In this document: piece after piece, positions 35,823-61,347 of the stretch
Position numbering within the stretch: position 1 is the stretch's first letter
Layout of the letters: the number at the start of each line of letters is the position of its first letter
NCBI GenBank assembly: GCA_025924315.1
Contig: JAICIO010000024.1
Location: 1-63,740, forward strand
DNA length: 63,740 nt
Reading direction: 5' to 3'
DNA from: Phycisphaerae bacterium
GTDB taxonomy: Bacteria > Planctomycetota > Phycisphaerae > Tepidisphaerales > Tepidisphaeraceae
Notes under the pieces: model-generated
What the model saw: only the letters and a program-made list of their open reading frames with translations
Database searches by the model: none
Told to the model about the DNA's origin: nothing
Position numbers and translations under genes: made by a program

Positions 35823-35860
35823 CAACGCGACCCGACTGAGTTTTCAGTCGGGTCGCGTTG
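35823..35860 (+). terminator. Candidate terminator after the DUF1080/propeller gene
   Basis: A perfect 17-base stem (35823-35839 with 35844-35860, CAACGCGACCCGACTGA) with a four-base GTTT loop, 18 bases after the stop codon. There is no T run behind it, so termination efficiency is uncertain. Confidence 0.75.
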
Positions 35861-35898
35861 CGCTTCATCAGAGGGCGGGGTTGTTGCGCGGGCACGTT

Positions 35899-35950
35899 GG
35901 GACCCCGTGTGCGCGATGTTGGCGTGCTATTTCGGCGTCGAGTCAGGGCA
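35899..35950 (-). repeat. Inter-gene module R1 of the small-gene island (partial)
   Basis: The plus strand shows GACCCCGTGTGCGCG (35901-35915) and, 24 bases on, GTCGAGTCA. The same two words in the same order occur in module R2 (37061-37090). It lies just beyond the stop of the broken small gene at 35977, as R2 and R3 lie just beyond stops. Confidence 0.5.
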
Positions 35951-35976
35951 GCATGACGAACTATCGCTTGTTCGCA

Positions 35977-36170
35977 TTATCGAGGAAGGTGCGCCAAATA
36001 CTCAGCGAAGTACCGCTTCCGCACCTTCTTTCCGTCCTCGCTGAGATAATAGTTGTAGCGCCAGTCCTTGCTGTGCCACATCACGTGACGCACCTCGCCA
36101 ACGTGCGGACCGCGACGCGGTCACCCACGGAGAACTCGGGGGTTCGGAGGTTCGTATCAAAAGGCCTCAT
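35977..36170 (-). pseudogene. Short frameshifted gene of unknown family
   Basis: From ATG 36170 the frame reads MRPFDTNLRTPEFSVGDRVA and stops soon after. A shift to the neighbouring frame at about 36100-36115 continues as GPHVGEVRHVMWHSKDWRYN then YYLSEDGKKVRKRYFAEYLA to a TAA at 35977. The joined product, about 63 residues, is a plausible small beta-barrel-like protein (GDRV...GEV...). The span of 194 bases is not a multiple of three, so one indel is needed to join the halves. ATG 36170 follows the stop of the next upstream gene by 11 bases. A sequencing error would look the same. Confidence 0.5.
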
Positions 36171-36181
36171 TGCGCCAGACA

Positions 36182-36640
36182 CTACGGAAGGTCATTCCTT
36201 CGAGCAACGACCCGTTGCGTCCACGGAGTTTGCGATCGGTCTGGTAGACCCGCTAGAATTTCGAGCAGCTCGTCCGGCGACAACTGGTAGATCGACGTTG
36301 TCAGTTCAATTCCAAAACTTTTCAAAGGAGCTGGCGGCGATATCTCTCTTACGTGGTGCAGCATTAGAGTTGATGGTACGCTGGTAAGCTGGCCTGTTGA
36401 TGTGTCGTTCTCTCGATTCGATGAGATTCGGCTTCCTTCCGGAACGTGTTCGAGCCGCTCGCTACGAAACCTCCCGTATAGGTTGAGGGTCTTGTCCGCG
36501 CCGCTATGCAAAAACACCGGATCACCGACCGCTACATCGGGAAGCGGGACGAAGGGAATTGCAAGAATGGTCTCAACCGAACGGGAATGATCTCGAAAGA
36601 ACTGATCACTCCGGATATTGATGATAAAACCTTTGTACAT
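36182..36640 (-). CDS. Unrecognised 152-residue protein in the small-gene island
   Basis: An ORF from ATG 36640 (MYKGFIINIRSDQFFRDHSR) with a believable globular composition: a beta-rich first half (ILAIPFVPLPDVAVGDPVFL) and a C-terminal segment (SFGIELTTSIYQLSPDELLE) that looks like a helix after a strand. No signal peptide, no membrane segment and no family recognised. Base composition is clearly less GC-rich than the flanking operons, so this stretch looks acquired. The downstream broken gene begins 11 bases after its stop. No plus-strand ORF of comparable quality covers it. Confidence 0.55.
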   Translation of the reverse strand: MYKGFIINIRSDQFFRDHSRSVETILAIPFVPLPDVAVGDPVFLHSGADKTLNLYGRFRSERLEHVPEGSRISSNRENDTSTGQLTSVPSTLMLHHVREISPPAPLKSFGIELTTSIYQLSPDELLEILAGLPDRSQTPWTQRVVARRNDLP

Positions 36641-36710
36641 CTCGATCGGTCGAAAGGTGCAACGTGCTTCTGCTTTATACCCGCCGTCATGGGCCTCCGC
36701 GCCCTGTGAT

Positions 36711-37007
36711 TTAGCGCTCCGGGTCGAAGAGCCGGTCGTAAAACTCCACGGCGCCGACTTGCATGCCTTTGAGGACGTCGATCACGAGGTTTCCTTCGAC
36801 GGGGTCTTTCAACCAGAGGCTCGCGTCGAACTGCCATTCCGCTGCGGGTTTATTGGCGTCTGTTGGATCGACGAAGTGGATAACGAACCTCGTTTGCTTC
36901 ACAACGGTCTTGCAACAGCGGAATGCGTCCGCCAGCCACGGTTTATCTGCGTGCTGATGCGTCGCGAGCGCGACAAGCCAATCCGGGTTGTACGGTTCGG
37001 ACCGCAT
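36711..37007 (-). CDS. Unrecognised 98-residue protein in the small-gene island
   Basis: The start is ATG 37007 (MRSEPYNPDWLVALATHQHA). A longer frame to 37091 would include the inter-gene module R2. The product reads as a compact alpha/beta protein: KPWLADAFRCCKTVVKQTRF, VIHFVDPTDANKPAAEWQFD, SLWLKDPVEGNLVIDVLKGM, then EFYDRLFDPER. It has no export signal and no known family. Such size and setting would suit an immunity or antitoxin-like cassette, but there is no specific evidence. Module R2 lies about 24 bases upstream of the start. Confidence 0.6.
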   Translation of the reverse strand: MRSEPYNPDWLVALATHQHADKPWLADAFRCCKTVVKQTRFVIHFVDPTDANKPAAEWQFDASLWLKDPVEGNLVIDVLKGMQVGAVEFYDRLFDPER

Positions 37008-37030
37008 AGACAGCCACGATATTACCAGAA

Positions 37031-37095
37031 GTCGGAGGTGGCGAATCGCCCGACTGTTCAGACCCCGTGCGCGTATTCTGGGCCGAGTCATTTCG
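37031..37095 (-). repeat. Inter-gene module R2 of the small-gene island (most complete copy)
   Basis: On the plus strand it runs GTCGGAGGTGGCGAATCGCC (37031-37050), CGACTGTTCA, GACCCCGTGCGCG (37061-37073), and GCCGAGTCA. Read on the minus strand, the gene-proximal part folds as AGTCGG ... CCGACT with an inner GGCGA/TCGCC pair. It separates the amber-broken gene from the 98-residue gene. Confidence 0.55.
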
Positions 37096-37122
37096 AGAGC
37101 GAATTGGCGAGCCGCATAATCG

Positions 37123-37545
37123 TTAGTCTTCGCCCATGAAAGCCAATATCAAAGACGTTTGCGAATCGGATACGAGCAATACTTCACTGAAGGTCCAATC
37201 CGACAACGGGAATTTGTTGAGAGCGAAGGTTGGATTGGTGAACGCGCCAATGATTCTCATTGTCCTCTCGACCGCGTCATCATGTTTCAAGCACTCTGCG
37301 GAGCTAAACACAATGTTGCGCTCTAGGCGCGTTACAAGGTACTTAACGGCAGAATCATGTGCGAGAAGCTTCTATCGATGCAGCGGGTGCCTCAGCGGAT
37401 GGTGACGTCGCGCTGTGTAGCTGCGCAATCTCGAGTCTAGCATTTCAGGACTCATCGCTTGCGTGCGGGGTACTGCCACGTCAATATCCCATTCGAACGC
37501 TTCCGGATAATCGCGTTCGAGTCTGACAAATTCTTCAGTGTCCAC
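37123..37545 (-). pseudogene. Small gene interrupted by an in-frame TAG
   Basis: From GTG 37545 the frame reads VDTEEFVRLERDYPEAFEWD, then DIDVAVPRTQ and on to HPLHR, and meets TAG at 37372-37374. The very same frame continues open for another 82 codons (KLLAHDSAVKYLVTRLERNI ... SLILAFMGED) to TAA at 37123. Either a roughly 140-residue gene carries a nonsense mutation, or two short ORFs abut by chance. The second part contains an internal ATG at 37311. Composition is poorer in GC than the neighbours. No family recognised. Confidence 0.45.
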
Positions 37546-37573
37546 GGTGATAGTTTAATCGAGAATTGTGGAA

Positions 37574-37615
37574 GGTCGGAGGTGGCGGATCACCGGTCTA
37601 TTGCGACCCCGTGCA
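37574..37615 (-). repeat. Inter-gene module R3 of the small-gene island
   Basis: GGTCGGAGGTGGCGGATCAC, CGGTCTATTGC, GACCCCGTGC on the plus strand: the same order of words as R2. It starts 5 bases beyond the stop of the 96-residue gene and ends about 28 bases before the GTG of the amber-broken gene (minus-strand reading). Confidence 0.55.
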
Positions 37616-37619
37616 GAGG

Positions 37620-37910
37620 CTACTTGGGGGCAGGTTTCGACGACGATGTGCTGCTTGAGCCTTCTTCCGGCGACTCAGTCAGAACAGACAGATGGATGCG
37701 GGACCTCACTTCGTCGAGTTCGCGCATACTAGCTTCAATGTCTCGTTGAACTCGCCACTCCTCAATCGTCGCGCTCAAACGAGCGACCGACACCGCCCCA
37801 ACGATCACGCTCGGAAGCGCGATCAGAACGATCAATCGGGCTTTACGCCGGCGATTGCGGGAACGCTCATCCGATGACAGTGCGGATTGATAAGTCAGTT
37901 TCAACGGCAT
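37620..37910 (-). CDS. Small single-pass membrane protein, 96 residues
   Basis: The start is ATG 37910 (MPLKLTYQSALSSDERSRNR). A basic cytoplasmic segment is followed by one membrane helix (about 26-46, LIVLIALPSVIVGAVSVARL), then a charged helix able to form a coiled coil (SATIEEWRVQRDIEASMREL) and a Ser-rich tail. No family recognised. Its stop is 5 bases from module R3 and its start is about 30 bases from module R4, so it sits like a cassette between two copies of the module. It could be a small regulator or anchor. Confidence 0.6.
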   Translation of the reverse strand: MPLKLTYQSALSSDERSRNRRRKARLIVLIALPSVIVGAVSVARLSATIEEWRVQRDIEASMRELDEVRSRIHLSVLTESPEEGSSSTSSSKPAPK

Positions 37911-37939
37911 TGGTCCGCTAATTGTTCGTGAGGTCCAGC

Positions 37940-37982
37940 GGTCGGAGGTGGCGAAACACCGGCGCGGTTCGAACCTCCGACT
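37940..37982 (-). repeat. Inter-gene module R4 with perfect 8-base palindromic ends
   Basis: GTCGGAGG (37941-37948) pairs with CCTCCGAC (37974-37981) around GGCGAAACACCGGCG and GGTTCGAACC. The first 20 bases match R2 and R3; the distal GACCCCGTG word is missing. It lies upstream of the 96-residue gene. Confidence 0.55.
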
Positions 37983-38081
37983 TGCGTCGGGGTTACGGGG
38001 CGGGCGCAAAGCGCGGCGCTAGACATTCAACGACGCGACCCGCGCTGGAGCTCGTTGCCAATCCGGCTGATGCAGACGCGG

Positions 38082-59277: not shown

Positions 59278-59342
59278 GGTGGTGGTGATAGTTGATAAAG
59301 GTGCAGCCGGCAACCGACAACTATAAAGTTGGAGCGTGCTTT

Positions 59343-59417
59343 GTAGGGTCCGCTTCAGCGGACCGGTTACTTTCTGTGCGAGAAGATGAATAACCGGTCC
59401 GCTGAAGCGGACCCTAC
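59343..59417. repeat. GTAGGGTCCGC-family paired hairpin in a divergent gap
   Basis: Forward unit at 59343 (GTAGGGTCCGCTTCAGCGGA + CCGGTTAC) and reverse copy ending CCCTAC at 59417, spacer TTTCTGTGCGAGAAGATGAA. It lies between two 5' ends, 14 bases before the start of the beta-propeller gene, so it could act in the leader of that gene. Confidence 0.92.
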
Positions 59418-59430
59418 GGGAAGGTTAGCC

Positions 59431-61347
59431 ATGCCACGTCGGACTTTTACTGTTCCGGATACACGTCTGCCGTTCATCAACGGCGAGATTACTCAAGTCG
59501 AGTTTCAGGGGACGCCGCATCTCGTGAGCGGCGTATGGGCCGGCGCGCTGGCGGGGGCGCGGATTTACTTCTGGGATCCCATCGCGCGCACGCAGGCGAT
59601 GCGGAAGCTGCCACAGGATTCGCCGGGCGTTTACATGCTGCGGACGGGGCCGGACGGTCGGTTGTATCTGGGCGATGGGGAGGGCGATCTTTATCGGTAT
59701 GATCCGAAGGCGGATTCGATCGAACTGCTCGCGGGCGGAAAGCTCAAGTCGATTACGCAAAGCGGCTGCGTGACCGATCGGTATGTCGTGTGGTCGACCG
59801 AGGGCGGCGACGCGGGCGTGTTCGATTGGAAGGAGAACAAGTTCATCCGCGCGTTCGATCCAATCGACGTGAGCAAGCCGCAGTCTCACTACGGTCACTA
59901 TCTGATGGAAGCGCCGGACCGCAAAGTGCTGCTGCCGATGGGAACTCCGCAGGCGCGATTGTGCCTCCTTGATCTCTCGAAGATGGAGATGACGTCGCAC
60001 ACGCCGGATGCACTCGCGGGTGAAACTGGGATCTGGGGCGCGTGCTTTTTCGACGATCACACGCTGCTCATTCTCAGCACGGCGAAGGCGCAGGTGTTGA
60101 GCTATCCGGACTTCAAATTGATTCGGGATATCGGCTATCCGGAAGGGTGCACGATCGACGACAGCCACGGCACGCGCGTAGGCAATGCATGGTATGCGAT
60201 ACTCAGTAAAGCCGATCGGCGGATGCTGTATCGGCTCACGTCGCCGGATTGGAAATGGGAAGTAATCGATCCGGCGTTTCAGGGTGAAGAGACCGGATAT
60301 CTCGGCACGTTTCAGGATCGATACCTTTGCGCCGTGAGCGTGAGCGGAATCGCGTCGACCATCGATACGCAGACGCAGAAGACGACGTCGCTGCAGCTGG
60401 ACAACTTCGGACCGATGGCGGCGCAGTCGTATTGTGTCGGCGCGGAGATGAACGTGATCGTTGGATCGCAGTTCATCAACGCGCGGTGCTGGCAGATCGA
60501 CATGAACACGGGGAAAGGTGAGGACCGCGGGCGCGGGATGCCGGGCGGGGGGCAGATCAACCAGACGCTGTGGGACGCGGGACGGCATCGGGCACTGATG
60601 TGCTCATACACGTCGGCGGCGGTGAGCGAGCTCGATCCGATGGCGCCTGGCGAGTGGCCGAAGAATCCGCGGCTGATCGCGTCGGCGCGGGAGAAGTATC
60701 AGCAGATGCGGCCGAACGACGCGGTGTTCGATCGCCGCGCGGTGTGGATGGCGACCGCCGCGGCATATGGCCTGCTCGGCGGGGCGCTGGTTCGCGTCGA
60801 TCCGGAAACAGCGAAGATGTCCGTCATGCGCAACATCGTGCCGGATCAGACCGTCAATGCGCTCGCGCTCGATCTGAAACGCCGACGACTTTATTTCTCC
60901 ACTGAGATTTATGCCGATCAGAAATCCGCGCCGCCGACGCAAACGACCGCGGAGATCGGCGTGGTGGACATCGACACGCTGAAGCTCATCCGCCGACAAC
61001 CGTTCAAAGACGGCGTGCCGAAGTGTGGCGTCATCGTGGTGCTCGCCGATGGCCGCGTTCTCTTTCATCAGACAACGGACTACTACGCTTGGAACGGCGA
61101 AACAGGCGAGGTCACATCGCTCGGCGTGATCGATCTACCGCTGAGCGCGCGGGCGGTCTATAAGGATGGAACGGTGTACCTCTGCCTCGGCGGAAAGATC
61201 GGCCGGATTGATGTCGATGAGAAGGGGATTCACTTCGCGCCGAAGATCGAGGGCAAGGCGCGGCAGATGCAGATCGTGGAGGACAAGTTGTATTTCTCGA
61301 CCGGCATCGAGATTCACGAAGTCCCGATGGAGGAAGTTCGCATGTAG
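59431..61347 (+). CDS. Beta-propeller (WD40/NHL-like) protein
   Basis: A 638-residue protein starting at ATG 59431 (MPRRTFTVPDTRLPFINGEI); an earlier in-frame start would translate the repeat. It has no export signal. The chain is a run of propeller blades, for example VYMLRTGPDGRLYLGDGEGD, RYVVWSTEGGDAGVFDWKEN, LRDIGYPEGCTIDD-like turns and MLYRLTSPDWKWEVIDPAFQ. A second set in the C-terminal half (RVDPETAKMSVMRNIVPDQT; VYLCLGGKIGRIDVDEKGIH) suggests two stacked propellers of six or seven blades. Function unknown. The stop codon TAG (61345-61347) is part of the following repeat element. Confidence 0.8.
   Translation: MPRRTFTVPDTRLPFINGEITQVEFQGTPHLVSGVWAGALAGARIYFWDPIARTQAMRKLPQDSPGVYMLRTGPDGRLYLGDGEGDLYRYDPKADSIELLAGGKLKSITQSGCVTDRYVVWSTEGGDAGVFDWKENKFIRAFDPIDVSKPQSHYGHYLMEAPDRKVLLPMGTPQARLCLLDLSKMEMTSHTPDALAGETGIWGACFFDDHTLLILSTAKAQVLSYPDFKLIRDIGYPEGCTIDDSHGTRVGNAWYAILSKADRRMLYRLTSPDWKWEVIDPAFQGEETGYLGTFQDRYLCAVSVSGIASTIDTQTQKTTSLQLDNFGPMAAQSYCVGAEMNVIVGSQFINARCWQIDMNTGKGEDRGRGMPGGGQINQTLWDAGRHRALMCSYTSAAVSELDPMAPGEWPKNPRLIASAREKYQQMRPNDAVFDRRAVWMATAAAYGLLGGALVRVDPETAKMSVMRNIVPDQTVNALALDLKRRRLYFSTEIYADQKSAPPTQTTAEIGVVDIDTLKLIRRQPFKDGVPKCGVIVVLADGRVLFHQTTDYYAWNGETGEVTSLGVIDLPLSARAVYKDGTVYLCLGGKIGRIDVDEKGIHFAPKIEGKARQMQIVEDKLYFSTGIEIHEVPMEEVRM

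Follow-up and report, generated by a model that had tools for sequence, protein, structure and literature searches.

Integrons are the textbook route to bacterial arrays of exchangeable single genes, and clusters of their attC sites (CALIN) do not require the integron integrase IntI in cis. Classical tRNA islands carry their own integrase and extend over many kilobases. A regenerated tRNA copy is a mark of such islands (PMC4383910). In the dif/pdif modules of Acinetobacter, which involve XerC and XerD, small genes are framed by short sites and rows of them share internal sites (PMC12907356). The pdif sites, whose orientation alternates, are 28 bp long and consist of 11-bp arms for XerC and XerD around a centre of 6 bp (PMC12907356).

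The locus described here lies in a window of 63,740 nucleotides, the whole stretch of DNA that was analysed, and consists of an island of small minus-strand ORFs, flanked on one side by a DUF6797/3-keto-disaccharide-hydrolase gene and on the other by a gene for an RsmE-type methyltransferase. The initial annotation had described short minus-strand genes, some of them broken and of lower GC, between conserved gene blocks. This description holds, with ORFs of 96, 98 and 152 aa accompanied by broken ones and a GC of 0.556 in the island vs 0.600 in the window. About five units follow one another head to tail, several of them broken. Unit A (37620..37910, minus strand, as are all units) encodes 96 aa that include a single hydrophobic stretch and belong to no family; unit B (37100..37545) is a broken ORF with fragments at 37372-37545 and 37123-37311; unit C (36711..37007) is a 98-aa ORF and unit D (36182..36640) a 152-aa ORF, both without a family, the latter with a probable frameshift near its end; and unit E (35984..36130) is a small broken ORF that includes the fragment VGEVRHVMWHSKDWRYNYYLSEDGKKVRKRYFAEYLAHL. 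A bidirectional terminator hairpin with perfect arms of 17 bp (35823..35860, inverted repeat I3) closes the island on the left. Protein-family searches revealed no significant match for the island ORFs and no integrase in the island. Units A and C are intact, B and E are broken and D is probably frameshifted, and the array of units A to E looks old.

The gaps between these ORFs carry modules of about 40 bp, delimited by inspection and all in one orientation. The only exact occurrences of the word GTCGGAGGTGGCG in the whole 6.57-Mb genome are those at 37031, 37575 and 37941, and the word GACCCCGTG occurs exactly in the window at 35901, 37061 and 37605 only. At least three gaps had originally been credited with both words in constant order; the words are real and their order is constant, but only two gaps (37025-37071 and 37572-37615) contain both. 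In gene direction, the first gap (at 37941) holds the GTCGGAGGTGGCG half only and forms one array end, and the last (at 35901) holds the GACCCCGTG half only and forms the other. The array starts with a left half (LE, copy m3, 37940..37963, minus strand, profile match), runs through the complete joints m2 (37574..37614, minus strand, profile match; right half 37598-37614, left half 37574-37597) and m1 (37030..37070, minus strand; right half GCACGGGGTCTGAACAG at 37054-37070, left half 37030-37053), and ends with a right half (RE, copy m0, 35887..35911, minus strand), recognized by exact word and profile match. The profile, made from sequence alone, assigned 42.0, 40.7, 37.4 and 30.8 bits to the four island copies, scores inflated by the fact that it was built from these same copies; its next-best match in the window reached 7.7 bits, and a 400-kb control drawn from this genome peaked at 9.8 bits. 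Independent support for the module comes from the exact count genome-wide and from further copies at other loci. Chance is excluded as the source of the modules. Weak decayed joints may also be present between units C and D and between units D and E. The first would lie between the unit C stop and the unit D start (36648..36687, minus strand), where 25 of 300 shuffles were as good. The second would lie around a tRNA-fMet-like stretch after the likely unit D stop (36133..36158, plus strand), readable as a decayed left half on the other strand, for which 2 of 1000 shuffles were as good and fMet was the best among the tRNAs compared.

The initial annotation had named a search for the module in the genome and its relatives as the way to check it, and this search recovered halves in both, mostly flanking or ending a small ORF. 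Contig C32 of the source genome has a left half (196-231, TAGCGGGCCGGTGATTCGCCCCCTCCGG) and a right half (868-884, GTGCACCGGGTCTGAACAGGCC) around a 204-aa ORF (266-880), which has a weak zinc-ribbon match under the curated cut-off. On C219, also of the same genome, the left half (1795-1816), a 132-aa ORF (1885-2283) and the right half (2320-2337; coordinates of locus L077) are arranged alike. In both cases the left half lies 5' and the right half 3' of one small ORF. C198 of the same genome has an exact right half. In G019, a relative from another genus, a full joint stands at the end of contig C95, a left half follows a stop codon immediately on C252, and a right half lies after a small ORF on C283. 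Since the halves are split around single ORFs at these other loci, the unit consists of left half, ORF and right half. Such a layout is that of units which can be separated and are linked head to tail, unlike a fixed operon.

C32 and C219 have in common a structured leader, about 190 bp long, that ends in the left half (81 percent identity, E 1e-41, fold z -2.35; L077 1637-1816, and L078 142-236 with L255 1088-1207). At C32 an insertion sequence appears to interrupt this leader, and C207 and C32 each carry the 10-bp target copy AGCAAGCGAT. The window array is without this leader. Exhaustive pattern scans of the genome revealed no further half pairs, and viral contigs and plasmids contained neither halves nor leader. 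Using a class-wide joint pattern with 3 mismatches allowed, we found clear module copies in two genomes only, the source genome and G019; the strict two-word pattern, applied to 25 relatives and to 298 genomes of the class, gave no further clear copies. Single joint-pattern matches with 2-3 mismatches were seen in 18 class genomes besides the source (G000) and G019, vs 2 for a reversed control pattern. Candidate sites on C3, C28, C50 and C96 were rejected as being without a paired half, a weak full-module match on G019 C146 was rejected because it falls within a long ORF, and four isolated strict-pattern matches in GTDB contigs of unrelated phyla were put down to chance.

These copies bear on the simplest explanation, by which the modules would reflect chance or the local duplication of one intergenic stretch. 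All copies in the window do lie within 2.1 kb. However, copies are also present on three contigs beyond the island contig and in a second genus, and the flanks of the window copies are not duplicated among themselves, so that we consider this explanation most improbable. In particular, the possibility that the module is absent elsewhere and its copies are fortuitous fails because halves recur at C32, C198 and C219 and in G019.

The module is intergenic, GC-rich and located about 20-45 bases before starts, as would be expected of a dispersed regulatory or REP-like repeat that is transcribed or bound by protein and does not recombine. One copy is also clearly palindromic: m3 (37941-37981) is the only significant inverted repeat (z -2.0; 2 of 500 shuffles). 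The hairpins of the complete modules m1 and m2, however, are no better than those of shuffled sequence (z -0.18 and -0.31), and the recurrent hairpin of the initial annotation was consequently abandoned. Furthermore, Rfam searches of the window and related loci returned only a tRNA-Gly on C198 and no match for the module. Scans of the genome placed no copies near its Y1/RAYT transposase genes and no repeat adjacent to a Y1 (PF01797) gene, and at other loci one half is always upstream and the other always downstream of single ORFs. Such a repeat is in our judgment quite unlikely. An interpretation of the halves as transposon terminal inverted repeats was dropped, the outer TAGCGGG/CCCGCTA words being tRNA-3'-end-like.

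The island shares several features with integron cassettes and CALIN, including tandem single-gene units joined head to tail in one orientation, a unit of about 250-650 bp, a short site of recombination-like character just past each stop, and small genes whose function is in most cases unknown. Moreover, a true integron exists in the same genome on C9, where seven attC sites adjoin an IntI gene above the curated cut-off; other pairs or clusters of attC were seen on C75, C78 and C92. The cassettes of the C9 integron (L027, 13658-18806) include SUKH-1 (SMI1/KNR4), DUF6891 and DUF4259 proteins. The island could thus be a cluster of attC sites without integrase (CALIN) akin to the C9 integron, whose integrase is not in cis with the array. 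Against this stands a covariance model built from the genome's own attC sites, which gave a best score of 7.7 bits in the island (E about 9, not significant) and nothing on C24, the island contig, in a whole-genome scan. The strict expression revealed no RYYYAAC/GTTRRRY core pair in the island, although it also missed the looser C9 sites, which makes the model the stronger test. The modules measure about 40 nt vs about 95-140 nt for the attC sites of the genome, solitary units of the island type have a half-site at either end, and related sites are tRNA-fMet-like. The integron alternative is excluded for the island, and its being a CALIN is exceedingly improbable. Higher-scoring matches of the attC model in the window (e.g., 2443 and 59328) proved to be simple long hairpins without attC cores. 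The proposal in the initial annotation of a cassette array differing from an integron thus agrees with the halves split around single ORFs and with the negative attC model. Its remark that a plain core is lacking also stands, and its remark that an integrase is lacking is true of the window but not beyond, given the IntI on C9 and the integrase-start remnants that adjoin half-modules on C32 and C198.

As in pdif modules, small genes lie here between short recombination-like sites, and internal sites are shared in rows. The joint differs in being about 40 bp long, constant in orientation and not visibly dif-like, and it does not have the 28-bp 11-6-11 layout.

The likeness to Islander-class islands, which are tRNA-borne and use tyrosine integrases, would reside in the tRNA 3' end as boundary, in the adjoining integrase gene and in the presence of tRNA-fMet islands in relatives. 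The right half leads into CCCCCGCTA, the tRNA 3' end, at C32, C198 and G019 C283. Beyond it, C32 and C198 carry a terminator homologous to the one directly 3' of tRNA-fMet in G019, G023 and G025 (E 4e-10 to 8e-6), genomes in which the order is tRNA-fMet 3' end CCCCCGCTA, conserved terminator and integrase start. At C32 and C198 the integrase start is a broken N-terminal remnant located outside the right half (scores 63 and 49; 0 of 300 shuffles as good), and its intact homologue in G019 is a phage-integrase-family tyrosine recombinase (PF00589, 1.3e-17). An element boundary at the tRNA 3' end is seen at the right ends of C32 and C198, and the left end of the window array has only a degenerate tRNA-fMet match. 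This attB-left-like stretch (37961..38021, minus strand) lies directly upstream of the first left half and includes the exact 14-mer GTCGGAGGTTCGAA at 37968-37981. Over about 60 bases it scored 23 against tRNA-fMet, with 1 of 1000 dinucleotide shuffles as good and fMet the best of the tRNAs compared; note that the fMet query came from relatives (G025, G019) and not from the source genome's own copy, and that the idea preceded the tRNA comparisons. The left half, on the other strand, weakly resembles the fMet T-arm (GGTCGGAGG.T..CGAATC), T-arms of tRNAs being alike among themselves, and the right half shows weak similarity to tRNA-fMet apart from CCCCCGCTA. No tRNA tail follows the C219 right half or the window array end.

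We propose, with a probability of about 0.5, that the island represents some five one-gene units arranged head to tail in a degenerate array, likely formed by a tRNA-targeting tyrosine recombinase. A unit would comprise, in order, the left half (G.CCGGTGATTCGCCACCTCCGACC), some 25-70 bases, the small ORF, 0-40 bases and the right half (GCACGGGGTCTGAACAG). Joined units would generate the full 40-base module, solitary units would keep the halves apart, and the module would also correspond to the joint of an excised circle (...CTGAACAG|GCCGGTGATTCGCC...). Recombination of the units would be site-specific and would depend on a tyrosine recombinase like those which, in this family, place islands at the initiator tRNA gene's 3' end. 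The joint would be attP-like and the tRNA 3' end would act as attB, so that tRNA T-arm plus left half would be attL-like and right half plus CCCCCGCTA attR-like, with crossover within a short overlap around GCC that is common to all four att forms. From these sequence relationships we infer the recombinase, the overlap and the movement of units. This att model explains the joints inside arrays, the halves at array ends, the outer flanks and the integrase remnants.

The same tRNA-fMet tails and integrase remnants at C32 and C198 could instead belong to hot-spot debris, in which the modules are attachment-site scars of larger islands repeatedly inserted and lost and the small genes are their decayed cargo. 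Larger fMet islands do exist in G019 and G025, and the majority of the island genes are broken. Debris would not, however, predict the regular spacing from left half to start and from stop to right half, and both C32 and C219 present one intact small ORF tightly framed by halves; we consider debris rather unlikely. The proposed array of one-gene units differs from Islander-class islands in its tandem single genes and in that an intact integrase and a regenerated tRNA copy were not seen. The search for an integrase gene of the element yielded N-terminal remnants only, which lie beyond the right half at C32 and C198, and for the cassettes no att-core direct repeat at both ends with a regenerated tRNA was observed.

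A broader interpretation is that these units belong to a gene-capture system apart from integrons, with tandem one-gene cassettes, a tRNA-fMet-targeting tyrosine recombinase and a core site derived from a tRNA, existing beside the true integron of the same genome. We advance it tentatively and regard it as somewhat doubtful. If the joint does derive from a tRNA attachment site, ordinary island integrases could also assemble gene arrays, and a possible route for the origin of cassette systems would be at hand. The sites found make the cassette-array idea directly testable in the family of the source bacterium.

Several other loci were encountered in the course of the analysis. At tRNA-fMet on contig C47 of G025 (L219 with L220, contig 101731-122981) there is probably a genomic island of 21 kb; repeats of the tRNA 3' end plus terminator form its limits, and a tyrosine recombinase lies beside the tRNA. 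On C25 of the source genome (L261, 5014-10715), a cluster of 29 tRNA genes, every one of them on the minus strand, is packed into 6 kb. At several contig ends (L252, L253, L254, L255, L078) the assembly is broken by a multi-copy element that resembles an insertion sequence and terminates in AAAGTGGGGATGAGTCAG. Finally, the window itself has two near-identical long palindromes, at 2443-2538 and 59328-59435 (TAGGGTCCGCTTCAGCGGACC...CGCTGAAGCGGACCCTA), which may represent a small transposable element of the non-autonomous type.
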